A stretch of 64,000 nt of DNA. Source: Undaria pinnatifida (Eukaryota; Sar; Phaeophyceae; Laminariales; Alariaceae). Where the stretch lies: the NCBI GenBank assembly GCA_012845835.1, contig JABAKD010000025.1, positions 1,515,001-1,579,000 of the forward strand. The letters are read 5' to 3'. The translations under genes were made by a program, and so were the position numbers. Under the pieces are notes generated by a model, which was not told the DNA's origin, searched no databases, and saw only the letters and a list, made by a program, of their open reading frames with translations. This document shows positions 28,767 through 56,267 of the stretch, piece by piece (within the stretch, counting starts at the first letter, position 1; each line of letters begins with the position of its first letter).

Positions 28767-29381
28767 GTGGCGGGGGGGGGGGGGCGAAACGGAAAAAGCA
28801 CCACGGCAAAACAAACCGCCGAAGAAGTCGCTATGGCGAGGAAAATCATTTACGCCAACCACCTCCAACGCCACATCCGTCCCCGGAGACAAAACACGAC
28901 CACTCTCCTTTGGAGCTGTCTCCTTTCACCCTCCACTCGCGCTGGTGCCTACCAAGAAAACCGGGGGCTCTGCCTCAACTGCCACGAAGACAACCACTCC
29001 TTCAAGCATTGTAGGCATCCTTTCATTAATGCAAGCGGCTGTTTGAACCCTGGACTTGGCGAACTCGGCAACGATAACGCATACCGACGTTGGCAAGCAC
29101 ACATGATCGGCTACCGCCGACACGGGAAATCTCCTCGCCCGAACAACCACAAGAAAAACCGTTGCCATCATGCAGGTCAACTGCGAAGGTGCTACCAGGA
29201 TCAGGACCGGGTAAACTGTCACAACGATAACGCATACACGTCGCATAACCATGGTGGTATGTCGCCCTCGCCCGCCTCTTCTGCCCCCGCTCCTGCTCCT
29301 GAAGCGCGCTTGGGAGCCGCCCATAGCCGGGGTGGAAATCCGAACGCGCGCCAGCCTGGCACATTCCCTACCAGAAATTGA
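28767..29381 (+). CDS. Gag nucleocapsid-type protein with CCHC zinc knuckle
   Basis: A frame of about 204 codons. Near residue 67 it has CLNCHEDNHSFKHC, a perfect C-x2-C-x4-H-x4-C retroviral-type zinc knuckle, followed by INASGCLNPGLGELGNDNAY and a Ser/Pro/Ala-rich tail ending GTFPTRN and TGA. The large element has the corresponding region at 49740-49390 on the minus strand, with the same order and the same terminal TGA. It would bind element RNA in the particle. The N-terminal 40 residues overlap the element's terminal non-coding segment, so the true start is unknown. The orientation is opposite to the element's LTR sense, which implies an internal inversion. Confidence 0.6.
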   Translation: MAGGGGRNGKSTTAKQTAEEVAMARKIIYANHLQRHIRPRRQNTTTLLWSCLLSPSTRAGAYQENRGLCLNCHEDNHSFKHCRHPFINASGCLNPGLGELGNDNAYRRWQAHMIGYRRHGKSPRPNNHKKNRCHHAGQLRRCYQDQDRVNCHNDNAYTSHNHGGMSPSPASSAPAPAPEARLGAAHSRGGNPNARQPGTFPTRN

Positions 29382-34966: not shown

Positions 34967-35525
34967 TGTTAAGATACGGCCTTGAAAGGCCTATAATTAT
35001 CCGAATTTGAGATCGGATGGATAGGTTTCGTATGATAAGGTTGGCGTTTTATATTCGGGAAAGTTAGGAAGTAGATCGGAGGCACGTGCCTCCGATCTCA
35101 GAAGCTATCTCGGACTCTGGTGGAAACGAATAAAGCTACATCTCTACGAAAGAAACCAAAGTGAGTTCTTTCCGTGGACCTGTTCAATTGGCAGACCTGC
35201 AGGGGGCACTCTGTGTCCCCCAACTTTAATTTGACAAATGGCGTCGTCGACAGACCATGGGTTTTTTGGGTCGTGGGTTCGATCCCCACCATCCACAATA
35301 ATAAACTTTTCAGATTTTCCCCATGTCGAGCTTGGAAAATACTCTCCCTGGTACCCCAGGGAATGGAACGGCTTGGATAAATGACAGGTCCGCCCGTATA
35401 TCCGGCCGACCTGCCATCCCGCCGTTTCAGGGGGGGGGGGTGTTATAAGGCTTAGTTTGGGTAAGCTATTGGTTAACCTTTTGCAAGTGGTCAAAACAGA
35501 CTAGTACCCCACTAATACCTTAACA
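34967..35525 (+). mobile_element. 559-bp LTR-family derivative with 4-bp target duplication
   Basis: 34967-35236 is a family LTR (TGTTAAGATACGGCC ... TTTGACA) with an AATAAAGC poly(A)-type signal near 35130. AATGGCGTCGTCGAC, the putative primer-binding site, follows at 35237. Beyond it are a tRNA-like segment with GGGTTCGATCCCCACC and a body ending CCTTAACA. GTCC flanks both sides (34963-34966 and 35526-35529). The whole is thus one inserted unit with TGTTAAG/CTTAACA ends, probably a heavily deleted LTR element. Confidence 0.62.
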
Positions 35526-35660
35526 GTCCCCTGTGCAGTACATCGTACAAGCTCTGCAGGAAACCTGTATAGAATTACTAAAAAGCAGTTCAAAGCACCT
35601 ATCACAACACATACATCGATATACCCAACACGCCGTGCCGGACCGCCGACCGGTATAGCC

Positions 35661-36044
35661 ATGGGCACACAGCAGCAGTCCAGCAGCAGTAGCAACCATG
35701 CCCATGGGCCCAACCCGACGGAGGGCGAAGGCCAGACTTCGCCCAAATCTGTCGGCGGGGCCTCAACTTCTAACGTGCGGCTAGGAGTAGTTAGCAGGCG
35801 CTCAGCAGGACACCGGCAGCAGCAGCTGCAACAACAACAACAGCAGCTTGATTATTCCCGATTTATGCAGATCGTTTTCCGACGTTCCTCCCGACAGGTG
35901 ATTCAATCCACCCTTCCTTGTTGCTATCCTCTGTATGTGTCATACGCGTACATATATTGCGAGTACGCCGGGTCTTCATTTTATGTATGTGGTATGGTAA
36001 GTGCAGCATACAACATACCAGGATGTAGTCTACAGCAGCAGTAG
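35661..36044 (+). other. Gln/Ser-rich open frame, doubtful
   Basis: MGTQQQSSSSSNHAHGPNPT followed by a segment EGEGQTSPKSVGGASTSNVR and a Gln run. The first 70 codons look plausible as an exon, then the frame passes into atypical Cys/Tyr-rich sequence. A GTTGCTATCC...TATGTG tail resembles repeats elsewhere. No domain is recognised. Confidence 0.2.
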
Positions 36045-36189
36045 ATTGTTTTAACTTGTCGTGGGGTAACAACACAGACAGCCAGAAGTGGTGCAAGCAG
36101 CCTCTTTTAATTTATCTTGCTGTTTTCCTGGGTTGTTCCCAAAGGGCTCACCAACACTTTCTGTTTTTTGCGTAAAACCTGCATAGTAT

Positions 36190-38311
36190 TGCTCAAATCT
36201 CAAGGGACGGCCTTGAAAGGCCTGCAATTACCTTATTCGATAGGTAATTGGCCGTTTTCGTATGACAGGTGGACGTTATCTATTCGGAGTAGTCAGGAAA
36301 AGAAACCGAGAATTCGCCTCGGCTCTCAGATGCTATCCGGGGCTCTGTGGAAATATTAAAGCCGCTTCTCTGCTACGACTAAAAAGTGAGTTCTCGCCGA
36401 GGATCTGCTCAGTAGGCTGACCTGCCTGCAGGGGACACTATGTGTCCCCACCTAATAACTTGATATATGGCGCCGTCGACATGACTTAGGTGGAAGTAGC
36501 GGAGCATATTAGGACTCCTATATTACGACCTCCATCTATTCCTGGCAACACGCCAACTGCAGCTACAAAGTTAGACGTCCTTGACGACGTTGATGAGCTG
36601 AAGTTCGCTAATTCTGTTAGGCGATTTTCGCATGCCGACGGGGAGCGAGGACGCCAGTTTGCGCCGACGTACCATGCCGAGATGCCACATCACTATCGGC
36701 CGGCCGCCGGCCCAGTCACCCAATCTATTGTCGTGTTACCCTTCGTACAAGCGTTCCTTCCTTTCGGACACCCAGGAGCTGACAAATAAAGGCCGCCTAC
36801 ATACAAGCAACGACCACTCGTCCGTGACGCGAGGTGGCGTCATCGCGGTGCTATGCAAGACACATTGGGTGGGACTCTCTGAACCTTTCTGGGACCGGAA
36901 AATGGACCTCCACCTCTCCCGCCCCCACATCTTGCGTTATTGGGCCAGAACCCCGGATCAGCACCGCCAAACCAACCGCCTCTTCCGCCGAATGCGGATC
37001 GGGGCGGCACAACGCGAGCTCTATCGCAACAATGGGAAGCGTTTCCTAGCGCCGGGTTCGCTTGTGTTGCCCGCGCCGATCGGCTTCGCCGCTACCACGA
37101 CACGGTGCTTCTTAAGGGAGCCCACTTTTGGTACAAGGGAAACGATGGGTTATGGTGGCTTGGAAAAATCAGCGCGAGCACGACCGAGGACAAGGTATAC
37201 CTGGTCCGCTTTCTGGACGAGCCGGAGCCGATTAAACTTCATTTTCCCCCGGCGCGCAACACGACTTTGACGGGAGCCGTACGAGGCTCTTGGCGCCTGC
37301 AAATTCACATCGTCAGCGCGTTTCCTCGGGAGATCTGACGTAATGTAGATTAATCTCGAGGCACGACTGTGGCCAGTTGACTTTCAGGCCATTCCTCGAT
37401 ATTTTTCCATTTGTTTTTCTGGGTTACGGGGTTTGGAGTTTTTGCCTTCGTGTTGTTTGCTGTGTTTCGAGCGTTTCCTTACTGGGTCCGGGGCGGTTCT
37501 AGCCATTTCTTCTTAGTCCTGCCGCCCGCCGCCCCCCCGCCCTGTGCCGGGCCAGGGTTCGGGTGTTCACGCCGCTATCTGAGGTGCAGCACTGCAGTTT
37601 TTTCGTGTTTGTTCAATTTCGCCCTGCCGACGCCGTTCTCAGCCCAGAGCCGGGGGGCGACCAGGGTACCATGTTCGCGCATAACATGGTACAGGGCTAT
37701 AATATGTGACTGTGTGGTATATTTTCTTTTTTTTGTATGTGTTCCACTTGTTTCGGCTAAACACTCCTCCCCCTCGCGGGGCTGTAGGTGGTGTTATCTT
37801 CCATTCCGGGTATCTGTCGTTTCCTGATCTAACCTCCGCCATGCCATCGGTCCGCGGGATGTTTTTGGCATGACTTCTCCCGTGTATTAGTGCCTGTGTT
37901 CCCCTTCCTTTCGACAAAAATTTGCCTTGCCCTGGTGTCTTTTTATGTGGTTTGTTTGCCGTAGAGCCTTTTTTTCTGTTCCCCCCCCGGCACATCGGCG
38001 GTACGCGGCAAGGTTTTGATGGGCGGTTTGCCTTGTTCTAGGGTCTGCGTTTACTTGAAAGGCCTGCAGTTATTACCTGATTTTATAGGTAGTTTGCCGT
38101 TTTCGTAAGATAGGTGGGCATTATATGTTCGGAGTAGTCAGGAAAAGAAACCGAGGCATGCGCCTCGGCTCTCAGATGCTATCCGGGGCTCTGCGGAAAT
38201 GATAAAGCTGCTTCTCTACTACGGCTAAGAAAGTGAATAATCACGGAGGACCTGCTCAATAGGCAGACCTGCGGGGGGACACTCTGTGTCCCAACTCAAT
38301 AACTTAAGACA
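36190..38311 (+). mobile_element. Deleted gypsy-type element with chromodomain (E2')
   Basis: Two family LTRs in plus sense (36190-36465 and 38046-38311) bracket about 1.6 kb. The putative primer-binding site TGGCGCCGTCGAC follows the left LTR at 36468. Only the 3' end of pol (chromodomain and a second small domain) and the 3' non-coding segment remain. The segment 37340-38040 matches 43860-43100 of the large element in reverse. Gag, protease, RT and integrase are missing. The LTRs are diverged, and no target duplication is visible. Confidence 0.78.
36780..37338 (+). pseudogene. C-terminal pol remnant: chromodomain plus WWLGKI domain
   Basis: The frame around 36790-37100 contains GGVIAVLCKTHWVGLSEP, FWDRKMDLHLSRPHILRYW, which has the chromodomain layout (aromatic cage Trp, WExE-like WDRK, C-terminal helix). 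After a frame change near 37050 the next frame reads VLLKGAHFWYKGNDGLWWLG, then KVYLVRFLDEPEPIKLHFPP, a compact beta-rich domain resembling Tudor/SH3-like folds, and stops at 37338. Chromodomains direct gypsy integrases to marked chromatin. The second domain is present in both copies and is not assigned to a family with confidence. Confidence 0.65.
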
Positions 38312-41204: not shown

Positions 41205-42078
41205 TTACTCCCCCCCCCCCCCCCCCTGCCCCGAACGCCCCCTTCTTCCACACCACCCGCACCATCGCCTAGACCTAGCACCACACGTATAACGAACCCC
41301 TCATCTAAAACCCTTCCATTCCCCCCCCACCCCCACCCCCCCCTCCCCTCCCCCCCCCCCCCCCCCGCCCCCACCCCCCACCTCCCCAACCCCCCCACCC
41401 CATCCCACCCCCACCCCCTCGAACACTCCGCCCTCCCTCTACTCACTGATTGTACGACTTGCCCCAGGATATACATGATAAACTGATGCATTATTTCCAA
41501 AACCGTCACATTTATCCCCTCAAAATAATGTATAGTTTCCACGCACAGATTGAGCTTCCCCACCCGCCCCACCCCCGCCCCAAGCCCCCCCTCTATGATA
41601 AACTGGTGCATTTTTTTTCTTGTACTAAAACCGTCAGATTTATCCCCTTAAAGGATTTATAGCCTCCACGGACAAATTGCCCGCTCGTCCGCCCCCCCGC
41701 CCCCCCCTTCCCCCCCCTCTAACCCCGCTCGCTTTTGATAAAACCAGGCCCCAACGTCCTTAAAAACTCCGCCCCCCCCTCACCCGTTATTCGACTTACA
41801 AGATTCACTTGATAAACGGATACATTTCCTTCCACAGCTGTCAGATTTTGTCCCCCTCAGAAACGGGTTTATAGTTTCCGCGCACAGACTGACTAACATC
41901 ACCCTTTTGACCCTGATAGCTACACTGTAGTTGCAAGGGGAGTCGCCGACCTATATCCTTAATGAGGACACGCAACCCGTAATACGCGCGATCGGAGTAT
42001 CACACACAGCTTGCAAAGATGAGTTCCGACAAAATCTTCGATCTCACAGCTGGAGTGTATTTTCATTTTTTATAATAT
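41205..42078 (+). repeat. Long R2 repeat with poly-C subrepeats (R2L), copy 2
   Basis: Same order as 14135-14930: C runs at 41211-41226 and 41325-41370, GATAAACTGATGCATTATTTCC, GTCACATTTATCCCCTC, a second and third subrepeat, then R2 from 41895 with motif MSSDKIFDLTAGVYFHFL. The two copies agree at the subrepeat level but differ in C-run lengths. Confidence 0.85.
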
Positions 42079-42437: not shown

Positions 42438-42709
42438 TGTTGTAAGGAACTGGGCGGGAACACAGAGTGTCCCCTGCAGGTCTGCCAATTAAGCAGGTCC
42501 TCGCGGAGTACTCACTTTCCTAGTCTTCGCAGTAGCACGTAGCTTTATTCGATTCCACCAGAGCCCCGGATGGCTTTTGAGATCGGGGGCACGTGACTCC
42601 GATCTATTTCCTGATTGTCCCGAATATAAAACGCCAGCCTTATCATACGAAACCCATCCAAATTCTCAATACCAAAAAAATACAGGCCTTTCGAGGCCGT
42701 ATCTTATCA
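42438..42709 (-). repeat. 3' LTR of E2
   Basis: Family LTR: inverse of TGATAAGATACGGCC ... AACACAGAGTGTCCCC. It shares TATAAAACGCCA(G/A)CCTTAT, CACCAGAGCCCCGGATGGC and ATGTAGCTTTATT-like (poly(A) signal in minus sense) segments with 54945-55211. Confidence 0.8.
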
Positions 42710-43086
42710 CTGGCCCACCAAGATGAGCCGCATATGCAAAAATAGGGGAGATTCGGGGAAACTCCGGTTCTACGAACTAGAACATGAATTGAAGATGCGG
42801 CTCCTCAAAACCCACTCCCACACCTCTAACTTTTGAGATCGGGGGCACGTGACTCCGATCTATTTCCTGATCGTCCCGAATATAAAACGCCAACCTTATC
42901 ATACAAAACCCATCCAAATTCTCAATACCCAAAAATTGCAGGCCTTTCGAGGCCGTATCTTATCACTGGCCCACCCTGATGAGCCGCACATGCAAAAATA
43001 GGGGAGATTCGGGGAAACTCCGGTTCTACAAACTAGAACATGAATTGAAGATGCGGCTCCTCAAAACCCACTCCCACACCTCTAAC
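42575..43086 (-). repeat. 256-bp tandem duplication across LTR and flanking segment
   Basis: 42575-42830 and 42831-43086 are near-identical at an offset of 256 bases. The unit runs from inside the LTR (TTTTGAGATCGGGGGCACG) into the internal segment (CCACTCCCACACCTCTAAC), so the element now has an extra partial LTR. It post-dates the insertion. Confidence 0.9.
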
Positions 43087-43355
43087 GGTCCTGCTATAGA
43101 ACCAGGAACACGCGAAGAAAAACGGTTGAAGGAAACGCGGACCCTCTAAAAAGTCAAAAGCCACCAATCAAAAACCTGCCGCGTGTCGCCGTTGTGGCGG
43201 AGGGGGGCAAAAGACTCTAGAAACTGCCGCATACCGCCGGTGTGACGGGGAGGGACAAGAAAGGCTCCACGAAAACCTACCACAGAAACGGTACTATGGC
43301 GAGGCGAGCCATCGTCGGTATGGAGGGGAAGACAGGCGCTAACACAAGCGAGAAG

Positions 43356-43860
43356 TCATGCCAAAACCCCCGCGGGCCATCGATATGGCGGGGGGTTAAT
43401 TGAAGAAAAGACAAATACCCGGGATGAAAGATGGCAACACCTACAGCCTCGCGAGGGGGGGGAATCGTTTAGCCGAAAAAGAAAGTAGAACAAATACAAC
43501 GCACAAAAAAATATAAGATGACAGACGGGCCCGTACATAGCTTTGTACCACGTCACGCGCGAACAGGGTACCCTGGTCGCCCCCCGGCTCTGGGCTGAGG
43601 AGGGCATCGGCAGGGCTAAATAGAACAACGACGAAAAAGCGACAGCCCTGCGCCTCAGATAGCGGCGTTTTACCCGCACCTTGGCCCGGGACTGAGCACG
43701 GGGTTCGGCAGGACAAAAACCAAAAATAGAAAGAACCGCCCCCATACCAGACCAAGACGCTCAGAACACCACAAACAACACAAAGACAAAGACTCAAACC
43801 TTATAAACTCAAAAAATGGAAAATATCGAGGAGCGGTGGCGGCTTGAAAGTCAACTGGTC
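43356..43860 (-). other. 3' non-coding segment of E2, shared with E2'
   Basis: Matches the inverse of 37380-37990: GGTACC near a GTTCGCGC-type segment, CCCCCCGGCTCTGGGCTGA, GGTTCGGCAGGAC-like. Frames here are open in both copies for up to 129 codons but disagree with each other, so it is treated as untranslated 3' sequence. Confidence 0.55.
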
Positions 43861-43877
43861 ACGGCCGCGACTCGAGA

Positions 43878-44530
43878 TTAATCTACGTTACTTTGCATCC
43901 CCCGAGGAAAAGCAATGGTGATGTGAACTTGCAGGCACCAAGAGCATCGTACGGCTCCCGTCGAAGGTGTGTAGCGCGCCGGGGGAAAAGGAAGTTTAAT
44001 CGGTCCCGGGTCGTCCAGCAAGCGGACCAGGTATACCTTGTCCTCGGTAGTGCTCGAGCTGATTTTCCAAGCCACCACAACCCATCGTTTCGCTTGTACC
44101 AAACGTGGGCTCCCTTAAGAAGCACCGTGTCGTGTTAGCGACGGAGTCAATCAGCGCGGAGAACACAAGCGTAGCCTGGCGCTAGGAAACGCCCAACGTT
44201 GTTGCGGGAGAGCTCGCGCTGTGCCGCCCCGATCCTCATTCGGCGGTGGAGGCGGTTGATTTGGCGGTGCTGGTGCGGGGTTCTGGCCCAATAACGCAAA
44301 CTGTGGGGGCGATAGAGGTGGAGGTCCATTTCCCGGTCCCGGGAAGATTCGGAAAGTCCCGCTCAATGCGTCTTGTATAGTACCGCCGTGACGCTACCTC
44401 GCCCCCGTACAGAGTGATGACCGGTGAGCTGCTCCACCTCCAGCCGTTGGAGGGGAGTCGAAACGTCGTCTTGAGTGACGTAGTATGGCGGGGAATTCTT
44501 GGATAAATTGTTGAGCACGTACTGCGTCAG
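43878..44530 (-). pseudogene. Chromodomain plus WWLGKI domain of E2 pol C-terminus
   Basis: In minus sense the order is LEVEQLTGHHSVRGRG, VLYKTHWAGL and MDLHLYRPHSLRYW (chromodomain, about 44450-44290), then RRMRIGAAQRELSRNN, and then GAHVWYKRNDGLWWLGK and YLVRLLDDPGPIKLPFPP (43880-44110). The parts fall in different frames, so at least two frameshifts have occurred. The second domain starts about 40 residues after the chromodomain in both E2 and E2', so the pair is an ancestral feature of the family. Known role for chromodomains: steering integration; the integrase itself is missing here. Confidence 0.68.
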
Positions 44531-46448
44531 CCCCACCGGTAGGTATTTGGGCATGTCCCCGCTGTCGTGGGGGTTGGCGCGCGGTTTGCAGCGCTCGATG
44601 GCCACACGCCGACGAGCGTCCGAACCGGGCAGGTCGGAAGGGAGATCCAAATGGAGGAAGTTGCTCCCGAGCGGCGAACCGTCCAGGGTCTCGGCGGCCT
44701 GAGTCCTCGCTGGCCGCGGTGGGTACAGCAAAAACCGAAGCGAAATCGTAGTCGGCTGCACGTGAGGTACCCCTGCGGCCGGGAGAGCTATCGATGGTGG
44801 CGGCGGATGCAGAAACACGAGCGGCGAATCTCCTGGAAGGAGTAGGAAAGTCGTCAAGCCTCATACGTCGCCCGTGTGTGCGAAAATCGCAAAAGTCGGC
44901 AAGGGTAAGGGGGATCCCACCCAAGGCCTTATTTTTGGTGCGGGGCATTAGCCCACCCAAGCCGACACCCGGAATCGGAGAGGAAGGAGTGTGCAGCCCG
45001 CAAGCCCTGATGAGATATATGCCAGCATCCTCAGCAGGGGTGAGACTCGTCTCACCATTGCGATCGTGTTCCGTGGCAGGCTCCGGCAAGCGACACGGGA
45101 AGTCGGCGTTGCCGTTCGCGCTTCCTTTGCGGCATTCAAGAGTGTAGTCGAATGCGGTGAGGAACTTGAGCCATCTCTGGACTCGGGCGTTGTGGTCCCC
45201 CACTTTGCCTATGCTTTCCACAGCCTTGTCGTCTGAGAATATACGGAACTTAGTGCCCCAAAGGTAGCCGCGGAGGCGTTTGAGAGCCCAGACGATGCCG
45301 CCAGCCTCCAAGTCAAGAGGAGACCAATGCCTTTCCGAGTCGATCGTAGCTCGGCTGATGTACGCGATGGGTTTTATGGAGCCGTTCGTCTGCTCCTGTT
45401 TGAGAGCGGCGCAGAACTCGTCGATGCAGGCGTCGCAATACGCGTGAAACGGGTGTGTGCCGTCGGCGACGGTGTCCCAATCAGGGAAAACGAGGACCGG
45501 CGGGTAGGGGAGCTCCGCAAAGATTTCTCGCACCACCTTCTCCGTAGCAGGCATGAAGGCACACTTAACCCCCTGGTGACGGAGCGCGTTAATCGGACGA
45601 AGCCTCTTCGATAAGTTGGGCAACCGTTTGCGGTAATAGTTGACACCATCCATGAGTGCGCGCACCTGCTTAACGTCTGTGGGCCTCGGCATATTGTTCA
45701 ATGCCAGCACTTTTTCCGCGTTTGGGCGTAGGCCTGCTGGAGAAATAGAGTAGCCCAGACCGTTCGCATCGGTGGCACCCAATCGCGCCTTCGAGGGAGA
45801 AAGCTTGATATTGTGCTTCCGAAGGCGTTCGAAGAGGGAGCGAATCGTCCGAACATGTGCTACCGGGTCGGAATCGAACACGATGACATCGTCGAGGTAA
45901 GCTGCCACCTGTTTCACGTCCTTGATCACATCATTGATAGCCTTGACGAAGCACCCAGGCGAGGCGGTGCTGCCCTGAGGCATAACAAGCCACTCGTAGA
46001 GGCCTGTGGGTGTGTAGAATGCTATAAGGGGAACTGTGTCCCTGTGTGCCGTCATCTGTTGGAACAAAGAAACCAAGTCGAACAAAGAAAACACCCGACC
46101 TGAGCCTAAGGAGCCGAGGACCTGCTCCACACGGGCGACCGGCAGTTGGCTGAGTTTGCTGACTTGGTTGAGCTTTCTGTTGTTCAACGTGATCCTCACA
46201 CCGCCGGATATCTTCGGGATAACCACCAGCGGGCTCGGGTACGGTGAAGTCGAGTGCTGAATCAGCCCAGCCACGAGGTACTGGTGAAGGGGCGCGTCCA
46301 CTTCTTCGGCCAGTATAGGGTTCATGCGATGGGGCCGTGAAGTGACCCGAGCGCCGCCCTCCGGAACCGAGATTTCGAAGGACATCAGGGAGCAGGACCT
46401 AAAATCCGTCTTCGAGGCGGAGAACACGCCAGAAAGGTCGCAAAGCAC
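44394..46448 (-). pseudogene. Ty3/gypsy-type reverse transcriptase - RNase H of E2
   Basis: A 684-codon frame. About residues 60-110 hold the RT N-terminal region (SPYPSPLVVIPKISGGVRI). FSLFDLVSLFQQM and LVMPQGSTASPG follow. The catalytic AAYLDDVIVFDSDP (YLDD) lies near residue 190 and GLGYSISPAGLRPNAEKV in the thumb. RNase H follows with HAYCDACIDEF, DLEAGGIVWALKRLRG, FSDDKAVESIG and GNADFPCRLP. The frame then runs on, without an integrase HHCC or DDE motif, into unrelated sequence to 44394. Upstream an in-frame TAG near 46482 separates it from the preceding linker. Function: synthesis of element cDNA and removal of RNA. Confidence 0.88.
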
Positions 46449-46623
46449 ATTCCCCAGTTGCTCGATGGCCGGGGGGTCCTAACCAGGATCGCGTAAGCCC
46501 AATGCGATCTCCCACAGATGCGGTGGGAGTCGGGCCCAGACGTACAGAAACGCAGAACGATGGGCTAGGTTCAAACGTTCCATTGCACCGGCGAGGGCGG
46601 CGGCAAGGCGGGAGCTATTCAGT

Positions 46624-47112
46624 CTAGCGCGCGACCGCAGATACCTGACTGTCTAAAGTCTGGCCAACGTGGTGCCCCGCAGCGTGGGTGGAGTGTTGCA
46701 AGGTACCCAGCGGGGCGCGCAAAAGTGGGGCGTCGGCGACCCCGAAAAGGTCGCCTGGCTCGAGGTCCGCGACATGTGTTAAGGGAAGCACCTGTCGTCC
46801 TGAAGCAACAAAGTGTTTCTGCCCCGAAGGAAAGTCTGGCTGCGGCAGTATGTCGTCAAAGTAGTGTACTGTGAGCGCAGGGAAGCCGTCACTGCGCACC
46901 AAGTTGACCGCGAGCAGTAGGGGCTCGTCCACCAAGATGACACCTGTAGTGCCATCATAGCGAAGGTGGAAAGCACCGTTCAAAGTTGCGGGGTCGACGC
47001 CATAAACCGCTACGCCTGATGTGGCGTGATGGGACAACGTCGGCTTGCCCAAAATCCGATTATCGAGGGGACGAGGGGGCAGGGCGCGGTACGAACGGGT
47101 GTTGAAGCGCAT
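46624..47112 (-). pseudogene. Protease-RT linker region of E2
   Basis: Minus frame with GKPTLSHHATSGVAVYGVD and FHLRYDGTTGVILVDEPLLL, protein-like composition, ending SQVSAVAR and a stop. It continues the protease segment and leads toward RT through LAHRSAFLYVWARLPPHLWE in the 46620-46490 gap. No enzymatic motif is recognised. Such linkers are common in algal and oomycete gypsy elements; that statement is from general knowledge, not a search. Confidence 0.5.
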
Positions 47113-47321
47113 TCAGCTGTCGCGGCCTAGCAAGACAGCGTGTTGCATGATAGGTAGAGGGACCACGCACGCCCACACCGCGAGAGAGCACGTCGGTTCT
47201 TTTTTGTGGAAGGATAGAACGCTCAGACGGATATGGGTCGCGGTCCGTAAAGGGGCGGATTCGCCAAACCCACCCCAGGAGCGTGGGCTGCTGGGCCGCT
47301 CGCACGCCGATGAAGCGGCGC

Positions 47322-47648
47322 CTACCGATAGCATACGCTCCAAAACGTCACGTCAGATGAAGGTTTGGGAAGGGCCAGCGCCGTACATCTGTAGGGCGTA
47401 ATGGCGTCCCCTCCGCTATGTATTGCAATCTCGGTCGTGAACGAAACGTCGTCCTGCGCCACGGTACCCCCGACGAGGCAAGGACCATGTTCTGGCAGTG
47501 CATGGTCTGAGGCGCTTCGAGAATCTATCGCTAAAACCTCCGGGCTTTGATCGGCGGGTGCGCCCGAATAATAGGCCAAAGGTAGGCCTTGGCCAGCGCC
47601 GGCCGCGATCCCCAGGCGCGACTTCTGAGCGGACGAGATTTCGTGCAT
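47322..47648 (-). pseudogene. Aspartic protease-like segment of E2
   Basis: The frame contains LAIDSRSASDHALPE, where the retropepsin motif would be D-S/T-G with a following ASDH-type stretch as in many LTR elements. The glycine after DS appears replaced by arginine, so the active site is damaged. VGGTVAQDDVSFTTEIAIHS follows, fitting a beta-rich protease. It starts directly after the NADAR domain and in another frame. Confidence 0.5.
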
Positions 47649-47699
47649 TCCAGCATTCTCGGTGGGGCCGCGGAACCGACGAGAGGGGCGGTGTGTGGT

Positions 47700-48190
47700 T
47701 ACCCGGCCTCGCTGTCGCGAATTGCTTCGCGATCGGCAGAAAGTGCTTCACCAAGAAATTTTGTCCCTCTCCACTTGTGTGGATCCTCTGCGCGGGGGTT
47801 GTCCACCCGGAGACCAATATCCCACACTGGGTCCGGAGGACTGGCCTCTGCCAGAAGCTTGTTGCCAGTGTCTCAAAAGGTGGAGTTTCATGGCTGGGTT
47901 CTGCGTAAAGTTGGCATAATTGCCAGATAACACGACATTTTACTTCTCCCTGTCCCAAACAGTGGTGTCAAAAATGTGCAGGCCTCGACCGACCCGTTTT
48001 TGTGTGCTGGGATCATATGACGACATGAGGAGCTCCACTGCGGGATGGTCTTTAAAAAGCCGAGCCTTTTCGGCCATCATAAACTGCTCCGCGCGCGAAT
48101 ATGATACGTCGTCGACGACAAACGCCGAAGGAGACCACTGCGAGAAAAAGGATGGCGGGTGCCAGAACAACACCACTTTGTCTGTGGAGT
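47700..48190 (-). pseudogene. NADAR (YbiA/DUF1768) domain within E2
   Basis: In minus sense the frame 48359-47940 gives VVLFWHPPSFFSQWSPSAF, YSRAEQFMMAEKARLF, YDPSTQKRVGRG and FDTTVWDREK, then a TAA at 47942-47940. The same frame continues with NVVLSGNYANFTQNPAM, and after a frameshift near 47880 another frame gives TGNKLLAEASPPDPVWDIGL, NPRAEDPHKWRG and LGEALSADREAI. These are, in order, the signature blocks of the NADAR family (Y-S-x-E-Q-x-M-x-x-K-A, G-N-Y-x-x-F-x-Q-N, E-A-S-P-x-D-x-x-W-x-I-G). The length, about 160 residues, is normal. NADAR proteins hydrolyse N-glycosidic bonds in riboflavin intermediates or ADP-ribosylated guanine. It is flanked by the Pro-rich gag spacer and the protease, on the same strand. 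Confidence 0.85.
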
Positions 48191-49311: not shown

Positions 49312-49745
49312 TCAAAGGAGGTGTCCCCGACAGTGCCGTCGGCGGACGGGTCGGATGTGCCGCACCGCCGTCGGCCTGTCAGTTGCCGGTGCAAAAGGTA
49401 CCCGGTTGGCGCGCGTTGGGATTTCCGCTTTGACTGTGGCTTGCCCCGAGGCGCTTCCCCGGAGCAGACGCGGAAGCCGAGGAGGCTGGCGAGGGTGGGA
49501 CAGCACCATATTGCCCGGGCGTGTATGTGCTGTTCCGGTTATCGCTGTGGCTGTGGTTGCCAATGTGAATGCTTACCTGGCTCTGGTCCTGGTGCTACCC
49601 TCGTGATTGGCTTGAACGATTTCGGCGATTTTTGTTGTAATTTTGCGAGCGAGAAAACCTCCCGTCGCGGTGGTAGCTAACCATGCGTGCTTACCGTCGG
49701 AAAACGTCGTCATCGCCGAGTTGGCCGAGTTCAGGGTTTAGACAG
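49312..49745 (-). pseudogene. Nucleocapsid-type region of E2 gag
   Basis: In minus sense it contains LNPELGQLGDDDVFRR, a His/Asn/Ser-rich stretch, PPSPASSASASAPGKRLGAS, and GNPNARQPGTFCTGN followed by TGA. All of these correspond in order to the E3 protein at 28767-29381. The CCHC knuckle of E3 would lie just upstream, and I could not find it intact here. The TGA after GTF-T-N is at the same place in both copies, which suggests the normal gag terminus. Confidence 0.6.
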
Positions 49746-50409
49746 CCGCTGGCGTTGGTAAAGGGATGCCTACAGTTGCGCAAGGAGTGAGTGTCTTATT
49801 GACAGTTAAGTCAATGACCCCGGTTTTCTCAGAGAGCAGCGGCGCGGGCGGAGGGCGTGAGGAGGCCGCTCCAGAGAGGAGGGTCGTCGGTATTAGACGA
49901 GGCACTAGCAGCGAACCTTCTGCATAGTTTTGTTCTTCCAAGGGCCAGCAGTTGAACATTTTGACGAGCCAGGGGTCGGTGGGATCAGTAATGGACATGA
50001 CAGTCGGATTATGGCTGGATCACGTCTGCCAAGAAGGCGACTGGGACGACACTCGGCTCTGGCCGCGCCCATGAACGGCGGGCCGGAGCCCCGACGGGGT
50101 GGGCACTCTGGTCGAAGAAATAGGTAGAGAAAAATGTTTTTCGCCTTTGACGGCAGGTGTCTTATTGTGCGCCAAGTCACTAAAAGCTCCCCACATGGTA
50201 TCTAACGAGGCATGTGGTCGGGGGTCCGTTGCCTTCGAGCCAGGGTACAACGTAGGCATGAGCGTCGGAAACTGTTCGTTGACCGCCATCCTAACCACTT
50301 CCAATACCACAGCCATCCCGGGAGCCACAGCGCGCTCACTCCCCGTAACTGCCAGTACCAGCACACGGAACTCCCGACTGAAATCAGAAAAAAGCGTGCC
50401 GTTACACAC
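49738..50409 (-). pseudogene. Gag middle region of E2 (broken)
   Basis: Minus frames 50409-50020 (VPTLMPTLYPGSKATDPRPH-like, with TMWGAFSDLAHNKTPAVKGE) and 49998-49738 (MSITDPTDPWLVKMFNCWPL) look like successive pieces of one protein, broken by frameshifts between the gag N-terminal ORF and the nucleocapsid. No capsid motif is assigned with confidence. Confidence 0.4.
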
Positions 50410-50465
50410 TCTGAAAGTTTGCTATTTAGTGTAGCCTTCCCCCGTGTCGACCCGGTCGAAGTGTG

Positions 50466-51902
50466 TCACGAGCAGGCGTAGCAAGAGGGTGAAGGCCTTG
50501 GGCCCAGAAGGTCTTCAGTCCATCGCTCTTGACATCTCTTGCCGGCTACCACGGTCACCTCGCCGTGGTCCATGTTCGAGCCCGAAGACGAGCGGGAGGA
50601 GGTGGATGAGCCGTCCCACGCTGAAGGCCCTCGTGCGCTGTTCCGCCGTCCTCCGGTGCCTCCTCCCGAGCTGCGGCCGCCGCCACGATTGGTTCCGGCC
50701 TGGTTGCTCCCTTGGCGGCGCCCTGAGCCGCCACCAGTACCCGACGCTCCTCCTCCGCTTCCACCACCGATGCTGCCCCCGCGGCGGTTGTGGTGGCCAC
50801 CACCCCCACCATTTTCCCCGTCTCCCTCAGTCTGGCCGCCACCACCCCCGGAGCCACCACCTCCACGGTTGCGGTCCCCGCGGTCGCGGCTGTCACCGCG
50901 CCGCTGTTTGGTTGCCCGCCTTCCCTCCAGCGCTTCCTTTGGGGTCGTCCATAGAACGGGGTCAGGGGCGTCGTCGTGGGTCAATCTTAAGGCTATGATT
51001 AAGGCGAGGGTAGGTGCCCGACGCATCTGTTCGAAGGCGGAGTTTTTTTCGCGGCGGGCCCTGACCGCTCCGACCGAAAGGTCTTCCGCCTTGAACGATG
51101 ACTGTCGCTCTGACGTTAGGAGGGCCGTGGCCGTTGCTACCACCGCCTCCGTCAGATCCGCTGAAAACTCTACCCTCGGCGTAGTCGCCATGTACTGGAC
51201 GCTGCCTATCGTGAAAGGTTCGTCCCCGGGTCGTGACTCCTGAAATGCAACGCCCAGCGATCGCGCTGGAGGCGGCGTAGCTCTCGCCGCAGTCGACATG
51301 GCTAAGAGGGCAATGGCTTGGCGTGCCCTCTCTACCGCGCAGGACGCCCATCGAGCAGCGTCCCTCGCCTGGTCGAGGGTTTCGTTCTCGCGGCGTCGGC
51401 GTTCATCATCGTGGCGTCTGCGTTCCTCACGCCGGTGCAGGGTCGCGTTTGCATCGTCGAGTGCTCGCTGGTCTCGGGTAATTTCAGACTCGGAGTCCGA
51501 GGGGCCGGCATGGGTGTCCCGGTCTCTGGAGCTCTTAGAGAGGCGCTCTGTCGAGCGCGGAGAGTCCAGGTGGCGGCGGTGGTACTCTGTCGAGTGCGAG
51601 GAGGTCAGCTGGTGGCGCTTCCTCGAGGTTGGCGAGACCTGGCGTCTAGATGCCTCCGCGCCCGGTATTGTTTTTTTCGCCTCCTCCTCGTTGACCGGCG
51701 AGTCAACCCGGTCGGTCGGTGTGCCTTTGGTGTGACCGCTCGTGTTGGTGTCGCTGTCGTCGTCGGGGTTCTCGCCCGGATGTCTTCCCCGTCTCGAGTC
51801 GCGGTATCTCGAGCGTTCCCTTCCTTCTCCCTGGGCCTCCTGTTTGGTGCGCGTGGAGGACCGCAGTCTGACGGGGTAACCTGAATCGTCACTGGTAGAC
51901 AT
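50466..51902 (-). CDS. Gag N-terminal protein of E2
   Basis: An intact 478-residue frame. Residues 1-165 are highly charged and RS/RD-rich (GRERSRYRDSRRGRHPGENP). Residues 165-210 are helical with HRREERRRHDDERRRRENET, a coiled-coil candidate. Residues 210-330 form the only globular-looking part (EPFTIGSVQYMATTPRVEF ... PTLALIIALRLTHDDAPDPV). Residues 345-460 are Gly/Ser-rich with GGGGSGGGGGQTEGDGENGG and many Arg, an RGG-like nucleic-acid-binding tail. Position at the 5' end of the element and basic, low-complexity composition support a gag role. No capsid family match can be stated. Confidence 0.65.
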   Translation of the reverse strand: MSTSDDSGYPVRLRSSTRTKQEAQGEGRERSRYRDSRRGRHPGENPDDDSDTNTSGHTKGTPTDRVDSPVNEEEAKKTIPGAEASRRQVSPTSRKRHQLTSSHSTEYHRRHLDSPRSTERLSKSSRDRDTHAGPSDSESEITRDQRALDDANATLHRREERRRHDDERRRRENETLDQARDAARWASCAVERARQAIALLAMSTAARATPPPARSLGVAFQESRPGDEPFTIGSVQYMATTPRVEFSADLTEAVVATATALLTSERQSSFKAEDLSVGAVRARREKNSAFEQMRRAPTLALIIALRLTHDDAPDPVLWTTPKEALEGRRATKQRRGDSRDRGDRNRGGGGSGGGGGQTEGDGENGGGGGHHNRRGGSIGGGSGGGASGTGGGSGRRQGSNQAGTNRGGGRSSGGGTGGRRNSARGPSAWDGSSTSSRSSSGSNMDHGEVTVVAGKRCQERWTEDLLGPRPSPSCYACS

Positions 51903-52039: not shown

Positions 52040-52720
52040 GGCCAAGATGGGCAAAATTGACTCTTGCTGTAGGAGGGGGCAGTACGGTATAGGGTTGCAC
52101 AAAAACGTCCACATCCATCACACCAAAACAGGCAGCATTTAACCTAGGTGCAGAGTAGGGGGGTAGCACAGTAAAGGGTCGCCCAACACGCCGACACTCA
52201 TCGCACCAAAACAAGCTGAAATTAACCTAAGTGCAGTATAGGGGGGCAGCACAAGGGTCGCCCAACACACCGACAGTCATCGCATCAAACCAGGCAGCAT
52301 TACACCTAGGTGCAGTGTAGAGGGGTAGCACAGTAAAGGGTCGCACAGCTAACCGTAAAAAAAACGGGCAGCATTGGCCCTAACACTAGTGTATGGGGGG
52401 GTAGCACAGTAGAGGATCGCAAAGCTAGCCGCATAAAATCGGGCAGCATCTGCCCCAACACTAGTGTAGGGGGAGGTAGCACAGTAGAGGGTTGTGCAGC
52501 CAACCGTATAAAAAATGAGCAGCATCTGCCCCAACAGTAGTGTAGGGGGGGGTAGCACAGTAGAGGATCGCGCATCCAACCGTGTAAAAAACGAGCGGCA
52601 TCTGCCCTAGCACGGTAGAGGATCGCGTAGCCAACCGTATAAAGAACGGACAGCATCTGCCCCAACAGTAGTATAGGGGGAGGGTAGCACAGTAGAGGGT
52701 TGCACATATACCAACCAGAG
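52040..52720. repeat. Tandem array, about 73 bp per unit, in the E2 leader
   Basis: Nine to ten diverged units with GGGGGG(T)AGCACAGTA(A/G)AGG, TCGC-CA, AACCGTA(T)AAAAA and GGGCAGCAT(C)TGCCC. Some units lack part of the sequence. Frames are open only because the unit lacks stops in one phase. It lies upstream of gag in the element's own sense. Confidence 0.85.
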
Positions 52721-53100
52721 GACAAGGTCAGTACAACGCCCGAACAAAGTAATTTCTCCACCGACCGCACTATAGGGGGACGGTCGCGCCTACGGTAGTG
52801 CTGCTCGCTGCATTATCGCTGCTTTGCCCATAGGTACCGACAATACCAACCGAACGAAGATGGGCAGTATAACCCTGGAACAAGGCAGTTTCCCCATCGT
52901 CCGCGCTACAGGCGGCGATCACGCCTACAGTAGTGCCGACTTCTGTCATATCGCTGCTGTGTTAAGAGGTAAAGGCAATTCCAACCGCACCAAAATGGGT
53001 ACTATATATAGCGTCCGAACAAGGCAGTTCCCCCACTCACCGCACTATAGAGGGACGGTCGAGCCTACAGTAGTACTACAGTAGTGCAAATTGGTGCAAG
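52720..53100. repeat. Tandem array, about 130 bp per unit, in the E2 leader
   Basis: Three units, starting near 52712, 52842 and 52980, share ACCAACCG-ACGAA-ATGGG, GAACAA(G/A)GCAGTT-CCCCA-CG, ATAGRGGGACGGTCG and CCTACAGTAGTGC. They follow the 73-bp array directly. 53100-54200 is the rest of the leader; nothing coding is recognised in it. Confidence 0.7.
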
Positions 53101-54944: not shown

Positions 54945-55211
54945 TGTAGTAAGAATTTTGGGCGGGGACACGGAGTGTCCCATGCAGGTCTGCCAATTGA
55001 GCAGGTCCTCGGAGAGCACTCACTCTCTTCGCAGAGATGTAGCTATATTAAACTCCACCAGAGCCCCGGATGGCTTCTGAGATCCGGGGCACGTGCCTCC
55101 GATTCATTTTCTGACTATCCTAAATATAAAACGCCAACCTTATTATACGAAACCCATCCAAATTATCTCAATACCGATAATTTAAAGGCCTTCCGAGACC
55201 GTACCTTAACA
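54945..55211 (-). repeat. 5' LTR of E2
   Basis: TGTTAAGGTACGG start in minus sense, inverse of CCTTAACA at 55204-55211, and TACTACA end. It shares with 42438-42709 the segments GACAC(G/A)GAGTGTCCC, TCTGCCAATT(G/A)AGCAGGTCC and CACCAGAGCCCCGGATGGC. The primer-binding site TGGCGTCGTCG seen in relatives is not intact next to it. Confidence 0.78.
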
Positions 55212-55389
55212 GTGTCACACATTCTGCTCATCTTGTTTTCTTTTGTTGTTTTCGTGAAAAGCGGTATCGAAGCCACTATTATTCCGCCCCTCTCGTTCCC
55301 TTCGTCACTACTCTATTACTAGGCATTCTGTTGCGTGACGTAACCAGCTCGTCTCTGCCATACGTGCCGATCTAACGCCCCCCCAGTAC

Positions 55390-55500: not shown

Positions 55501-55659
55501 AAACAACAAATCATATCTACTCCCAAAGAACAAAGAAAGGCGAGTTTCTGCGGGGGTCTCCGGTGGCTCGAAACATTTTTTTTCCCATAGTTGTGGACGG
55601 TAGCGGTAGCGGTGGAAACAGGAGAGCTAGCTGTGGATCCCAATGTTCGTATATTATAA

Positions 55660-56255
55660 AAAATGAAAATATACTCCAGCTGTGAGATCGAAGATTTCGT
55701 CGAAACTCATCTTTGCAAGCTGTGTGTGATACTCCGATCGCGCGCATTACGAGTTGTGTGTCCTCATTAAGGATATAGGTCGGCGACTCCCCTTACAACT
55801 ACAGTGTAGCTATCAGGGTCAACAGGATGATTTTAGTCAGTCTGTGCGCGGAAACTATAAAACCCGTTTCTGAGGGGGATAAAATCTGACAGCTGTGAAG
55901 GGAAATATATCCTTTTATCAAGTGAATCTTGTAAGTCGAATAACCGGTGAGGGGGGTGGGGCGGAGTTTTGAAGGACGTGGGGGCCTGGTTTTGATCAAA
56001 AGCGAGCGGGTTTGGAGGGGGGGGGGGGGGGGGCGAAAGGGGGCAATTTGTGCGTGTAAGCTATAAATCCTTTCGAGGGGATAAATCTGACGGTTTTGGC
56101 ACCAGTATATTATTGGGGGCGGGGGGGGGGGGGGGGGGAAGGGGGGGGCAGCTCAACATGTGCCTGGAAACTATGCATTATTTTGAGGGGATAAATGTGA
56201 CGGTTTTGGAAATAATACATCAGTTTATCATGTATATCCTGGGGTAAGTCGTACA
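55660..56255 (-). repeat. Long R2 repeat with poly-C subrepeats (R2L), copy 3, inverted
   Basis: Starts with an inverted R2 (minus-strand motif MSFDEIFDLTAGVYFHFL at about 55710). It is followed by the inverted GTCAGATTTTATCCCCCTC subrepeat and two further subrepeats separated by G runs (56018-56034, 56116-56148), the complement of the C runs in copies 1 and 2. The C runs sit at the same subrepeat junctions in all three copies. Confidence 0.85.
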
Positions 56256-56267
56256 ATCGTTCGTATA

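Follow-up and report, generated by a model that had tools for sequence, protein, structure and literature searches.

A YbiA-type NADAR domain is carried, on the minus strand of a 64,000-nucleotide stretch of Undaria pinnatifida DNA (the window), inside what looks like a Ty3/gypsy element of a brown-algal lineage, a copy that is old and no longer active. Fusions of this kind have already been published (Genome Biology, September 2025; PMC12477816), and the window copy is a further member that has been inactivated. Added here are the position of the NADAR between gag/CCHC and protease, taken from open reading frames, together with a test of co-inheritance, a comparison of constraint, counts of the catalytic residues and a tree in which the element NADARs form one clade with a bacterial neighbor. 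Our main reading, to which we assign a probability of roughly one half, is that the lineage encodes a polyprotein running from gag to a C-terminal domain, that it acquired its NADAR in a single capture, probably from a source of bacterial type, and kept it as a core enzyme, and that this enzyme strips guanine-linked ADP-ribose from the RNA or cDNA of the element.

The NADAR domain extends over positions 48167-47711 of the window (minus strand). Its N-terminal half (47943..48167, minus strand) contains YSRAEQFMMAEKA, a block that includes the Glu and the Lys in contact with ADP-ribose, and corresponds to residues 120-194 of the ORF window:47943-48524:-. A Pfam profile search, suggested in an earlier note made from the letters of the window, matched this first half alone to positions 2-89 of the 163-position profile PF08719 with 55.9 bits (E 8e-15; curated cut-off 35.1), which places it in the NADAR superfamily; the NCBIfam profile TIGR02464 has a cut-off of 73.7, which the same half by itself did not reach (52 bits). 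The frame is then interrupted by a TAA stop codon (47940..47942, minus strand; sequence and translation), and the C-terminal half follows at 47711..47939 (minus strand) with the blocks AEASPPDPVW, WRG and LGEAL, recognized by tblastn with the NADAR part of P0006, one of the related proteins, and by three-frame translation. The tblastn alignment to the window (E 2e-34) consists of two stretches in successive frames, 48122-47874 with 50.6% identity and 47869-47711 with 50.9%; the C-terminal half is thus in the unshifted frame until ~47874 and in the shifted frame from 47869, with one frameshift near 47870. No Pfam match was obtained for the short C-terminal pieces window:47751-47939:- and 47419-47967:- searched alone, and the second half of the domain therefore rests on the tblastn alignments. 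All four signature blocks quoted in the earlier note were recovered on the minus strand, and the breaks that it had counted, one TAA and one frameshift, are the two described above. Equivalents of E43, K50 and E125 (numbering of the ADP-ribose-bound P. nicotianae NADAR) can all still be read in this decayed copy, and the Glu at the E125 position, in the AEASPPDPVW block past the frameshift, assigns it to the YbiA subfamily.

The sequence around the NADAR is that of a degraded Ty3/gypsy element. A broken gag remnant lies upstream (49394..50505, minus strand; tblastn with residues 259-448 and 465-629 of P0277 and 75-160 of P0031), and a retropepsin-like segment that keeps WGGFG and LLGRDSW lies downstream (46699..47406, minus strand; tblastn with P0240, P0236 and P0006), so that the NADAR sits between gag and protease segments as had been claimed. 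Gypsy-type reverse transcriptase (RT) and RNase H are encoded by an ORF at 44397..46478 (minus strand; PF00078, PF17917, PF17919), and a post-integrase C-terminal segment was found at 44270..44704 (minus strand; tblastn with the tail of P0021, 52% identity). The latter has no Pfam match and may be called chromodomain-like by analogy, the label being borrowed from the published family. Direct LTR-like repeats of ~270 bp, 83% identical to each other and 12.5 kb apart, were located by blastn self-comparison on the 3′ side of the element (42451..42718, 270 bp, also seen in a repeat search) and on its 5′ side (54959..55220), neither being assigned a strand, and are probably old LTR pieces. The CCHC pattern was not found on the minus strand of the window, and the D-T/S-G active-site motif was not recognizable in the protease-like segment when its translation was read by eye. 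Integrase queries likewise found no integrase core in the window, where a gap lies between ~44860 and 44704, and the integrase expected 3′ of RNase H in a Ty3/gypsy element is thus missing from this copy. Since integrase is present in the relatives P0236 and P0242, the window copy looks like a deletion derivative.

Other repeats surround this copy. Related element fragments lie on the plus strand at 28908-29366 (part of gag) and 36829-38010 (3′ region), the second being 79% identical to 43225-44402 and having a matching C-terminal segment. More copies of the 270-bp LTR-like repeat, 70-81% identical, occur at 34967-36455 and 38101-38292. A diverged tandem array with units of ~75-170 bp occupies 52075-53077, toward the 5′ side of the element region. 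An inverted 0.6-kb repeat, 87% identical, is found on both flanks of the region (41448-42078 and 55651-56258) and recurs in part at 30.6 kb and within the 9-15 kb interval. A Pfam scan of ten other ORFs of the window returned one match, Chlam_PMP, at a summed 42.2 bits (cut-off 20.6) with no single stretch passing.

The order of domains could be followed in relatives with open frames. Searching with the NADAR portion of P0006 yielded 53 proteins, including P0236, P0238 and P0240, and the last two represent 126 and 415 member sequences, respectively. NADAR lies 5′ of RT in 32 of the 33 proteins that have both (the exception, P0253, is discussed below) and 5′ of the protease motif in 45 of 46; in the exception, P0124, the motif comes after the NADAR core, within the flank spanned by the NADAR profile. 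In P0277, a single ORF contains gag homology, a CCHC motif at residue 486 and a NADAR at 896-1037, and in P0236 one ORF of 1998 aa runs from NADAR through a protease motif (LLDTGS), RT and RNase H to integrase. Pfam domains and the protease motif give the order protease motif - RT - RNase H - integrase in the relatives. Overlaps between these natural ORFs give gag - CCHC - NADAR - protease - RT - RNase H - integrase as the order in the lineage, which has the NADAR at the N-terminus of Pol, as in the Ectocarpus NADAR-Gypsy lineage. P0277 and P0236 together back the gag-NADAR-protease-RT architecture that the earlier note had proposed as ancestral. Among the 120 RT relatives listed (of 132 found), 16 have PF08719 in the same protein, most of the models being truncated upstream.

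NADAR and RT have been inherited together in this lineage. Distances between NADARs correlate with those between RTs among 13 relatives and the window, 12 Ectocarpus sp. CCAP 1310/34 proteins being included (Mantel r 0.877 over 91 pairs, a value that none of 9999 permutations reached). The window NADAR is 83% identical over 83 columns to its nearest relative, P0124, and the window RT is 83% identical over 433 columns to its own, P0002; among the matches listed, the named close relatives, all from Ectocarpus sp. CCAP 1310/34, share 44-63% identity with the window RT ORF, in keeping with a brown-algal host. In an RT tree that kept 96 of 121 rows according to RT coverage, a 69-row clade (SH-aLRT 95) unites the window with NADAR-bearing Ectocarpus models. 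NADAR presence maps onto this tree with 14 changes, no better than shuffled, and the mapping is uninformative because most gene models begin downstream of the NADAR. Long models that have no NADAR make up nine of the 96 rows, and five of the nine fall in Gypsy groups other than this one. Of the rest, P0028, P0087 and P0033 start shortly before or after the protease motif, and P0039 starts with a different, LINE-like RT stretch. A single accidental insertion of a host NADAR gene into one element, the outcome that the earlier note had named as contrary to its reading, did not occur as judged by relatives in other records. The shared position of the NADAR in these relatives, the equal distances of 83%, the correlated NADAR and RT distances and the single clade described below all argue against such an insertion, which we reject as extremely improbable.

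In an 84-row NADAR tree, the 26 members of the lineage fall into a single clade, supported at 96 by ultrafast bootstrap and at 88 by SH-aLRT, and the lineage NADARs with 16 further rows form another at 96/95. The sister group, 16 rows at 92/88, consists of 6 Myxococcota, 4 Planctomycetota and 6 rows with no name. Four Nannocystis NADARs are 45-57% identical to the element NADAR P0126 over the best segment. Trees built without the long ORFs were weaker for the element clade, with SH-aLRT 84-92 in a 115-row tree (rows with at least 70 profile positions) and 83/89 in a 93-row tree, in which the rather broken P0188 falls outside the clade; the rows of the 93-row and 84-row trees were chosen by hand and include part of at least 80 genome loci. 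Because the lineage NADARs form one clade beside bacterial ones, one capture is likely, and the simplest reading of the trees is a single capture from a bacterial-type donor, which agrees with the horizontal transfer suggested in PMC12477816. The trees contain few eukaryotic NADARs, and their bacterial loci were picked as best matches to the element, so that a bacterial donor is a candidate. A scan of IMG/VR with the RT relative P0002 found no relative, a second scan with P0001 found 7 NADAR-encoding loci, each with a NADAR ORF of 160-199 aa between stops, and a structure search of BFVD found NADARs in many phages and giant viruses.

The relatives of the window copy show that the element has had its NADAR for a long time and has preserved it well. 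Between P0006 and the distant P0240, P0236 or P0238, identity is 54-55% in the NADAR versus 56-57% in RT/RNase H, with 46-47% in the protease and 28-36% in the spacer between NADAR and protease; the NADAR thus appears to be held about as tightly as RT. The roles of the E43, K50 and E125 equivalents are taken from PMC11543638. Counting only letter-bearing rows, these residues are kept in 38/39, 45/45 and 44/45 of 46 ORFs, and in 12/13, 14/14 and 12/13 of 17 polyprotein models. The residues are less strictly conserved in 59 shorter family ORFs from ENA, a set with many fragments (51/59 for E43, 52/59 for K50 and 11/14 with a letter for E125), and there the pyrophosphate-contacting Trp is replaced by Gly in 11 of 48 letter-bearing rows. 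An AlphaFold2 model of P0126 has a mean pLDDT of 91-98 per ten residues over residues 31-190, and its best PDB matches are 8BAU (E 5e-13) and YbiA (6e-8), no other match being below E 3.

In the mechanism that we propose, the element would encode the polyprotein gag - NADAR - protease - RT - RNase H - integrase - C-terminal domain, in which a NADAR captured once, probably of bacterial type, would have been retained since as a core enzyme of the element. Inside the gag-pol particle, or after release from the particle polyprotein, this enzyme would act on element RNA or cDNA, where it would hydrolyze the N-glycosidic bond that links ADP-ribose to guanine. The hydrolysis would repair modification by host ADP-ribosyltransferases around the time of reverse transcription, which is the counter-defense role that we infer for an enzymatically active NADAR. 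By analogy with characterized enzymes, we give about even odds to the view that the NADAR clears guanine-linked ADP-ribose from the RNA or cDNA of the element within the particle: the NADARs tested in the cited papers all took ADP-ribose off guanosine in DNA (PMC11125620) and in RNA (PMC11833690) and were inactive on phosphate ends (PMC11833690), and those tested on uracil had no or negligible activity (PMC13036486). A putative function against ADP-ribosylation fits the kept catalytic residues; the effect on NAD metabolism that had also been suggested found no support in the analysis. No report on the activity of any retroelement NADAR was found in the literature looked at.

The main rival to a nucleic-acid substrate is a small molecule, with the NADAR acting on soluble compounds, either ADP-ribose-derived host signals or riboflavin intermediates, in place of element nucleic acids. 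YbiA-type NADARs also cleave riboflavin-pathway intermediates, and intact relatives exceed the cut-off (73.7) of TIGR02464, the profile for riboflavin biosynthesis intermediates N-glycosidase (130.2 for P0126 and 128.6 for P0006), so that the substrate may indeed be small. Phage NADARs are argued mostly to target soluble ADP-ribose derivatives, whereas those in polyproteins of eukaryotic RNA viruses are argued to target macromolecular ADP-ribose made by host enzymes (PMC9503650). A location in the gag-pol polyprotein would put the NADAR in the particle with RNA, and another Gypsy polyprotein (P0253) bears both Macro and NADAR domains; in light of both, we consider soluble substrates rather unlikely.

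A role with no catalysis at all, structural or RNA-binding, in the particle or in polyprotein processing, would agree with the position of the NADAR next to nucleocapsid and protease, and a part in the processing of RNA intermediates has been suggested for retroelement NADARs, with no chemistry defined (PMC12477816). However, the catalytic Glu, the Lys and the YbiA-type Glu are near-invariant in the long ORFs and would not be required for a structural function, which argues against such a role and leaves it less probable than soluble substrates. De-ADP-ribosylation of element RNA or cDNA is the reading that we prefer.

The Macro-bearing polyprotein comes from outside the window. P0253 is one ORF of 1919 aa (ENA, contig of 8569 bases) with the Pfam order RT - RNase H - integrase - Macro - NADAR, in which Macro scores 68.3 bits (cut-off 22) and NADAR 176.9 bits. 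Its RT has other Gypsy elements as best matches (34-42% identity), and its Macro domain is similar to the ones found in PARP14, MACROD1, PARP9 and the nsp3 or replicase polyproteins of viruses. In the 84-row tree, the P0253 NADAR groups with P0280, an abalone protein and 8BAU on a branch at 98/94, apart from the window lineage. Plain BLASTP finds lineage members (48-51%) and others (46-48%) equally close, and the independence of this NADAR therefore rests on the tree; on this basis, the one record probably represents a separate capture. A Gypsy polyprotein with tandem Macro and NADAR after integrase is new here, no report of a Macro-bearing LTR element having been found in titles and abstract openings of the mostly open-access literature. 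Macro and NADAR are unrelated folds whose common ground is mainly ADP-ribose processing, and for this reason their union in P0253 favors an ADP-ribose-removing role and would be the strongest hint of it.

Two further arrangements were seen in other records. In P0280 (JGI), the NADAR lies directly 5′ of integrase (H2C2, rve and a p58 C-terminal domain), a third arrangement, and a 1608-aa abalone protein with an RBBP6-like name (P0233, Haliotis cracherodii) has three NADAR domains. As a tentative generalization that we hold to be less likely than not, hosts may restrict reverse transcription through ADP-ribosylation of element RNA or cDNA, and Gypsy elements may for that reason have acquired enzymes that remove ADP-ribose on more than one occasion; bearing on this are the positions of the NADAR before the protease in the window lineage, after Macro in P0253 and before integrase in P0280.

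If the NADAR does de-ADP-ribosylate retroelement nucleic acid, reversible ADP-ribosylation of nucleic acids would be a battlefield between hosts and retrotransposons in eukaryotes. The role of eukaryotic NADARs, which was termed unclear in PMC11125620, would then become testable in a culturable alga.

Comparison with known systems separates the element NADAR from the DarT1-NADAR toxin-antitoxin systems (BC4488 family), with which it has the NADAR fold and, if active as proposed, de-ADP-ribosylation chemistry in common (PMC11543638). Those NADARs have a catalytic Asp and an operon with DarT1, whereas the window NADAR has Glu at that position, and no Pfam ADP-ribosyltransferase was found among the 17 window ORFs or pieces scanned. 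The P. nicotianae NADAR (8BAU) and E. coli YbiA (2B3W) share with the element NADAR the fold, the YbiA-type Glu and most of the ADP-ribose-contacting residues, although they are 26% and 23% identical to the P0126 model, element NADARs do not conserve the position aligned with D86 of 8BAU, and neither protein is polyprotein-borne in the cited papers. Animal positive-strand RNA viruses are similar in having a NADAR within the polymerase polyprotein (PMC9503650), but their polymerase is an RNA-dependent RNA polymerase; Macro and NADAR are described as largely mutually exclusive in them (PMC9503650), unlike in P0253, which has both.

The closest parallels are other retrotransposons, and the caution in the earlier note that such fusions might already be known was well placed: PMC12477816 describes them both for Ectocarpus Gypsy elements and for ORF1 proteins of Tx1 LINEs in oyster. 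The Tx1 LINEs of Crassostrea gigas have likewise captured a NADAR, but by description they are non-LTR elements with a divergent NADAR in ORF1 (PMC12477816). In Ectocarpus, every family of one of the four Gypsy lineages is reported to have a Pol that begins with a conserved NADAR of the YbiA family, with NADAR matches outside Ectocarpus almost exclusively bacterial and horizontal transfer suggested (PMC12477816). Compared with that lineage, as it is described, the window holds a decayed copy of another family (closest RT 83%) in which no integrase core was found. A C-terminal chromodomain is reported for Gypsy-12_Ec32, and the window lineage has a C-terminal segment that we liken to one. Gypsy-12_Ec32 and its relatives (PMC12477816) share with the window lineage a Gypsy Pol with an N-terminal NADAR of the YbiA family, and in both the NADAR is bacterial-like.
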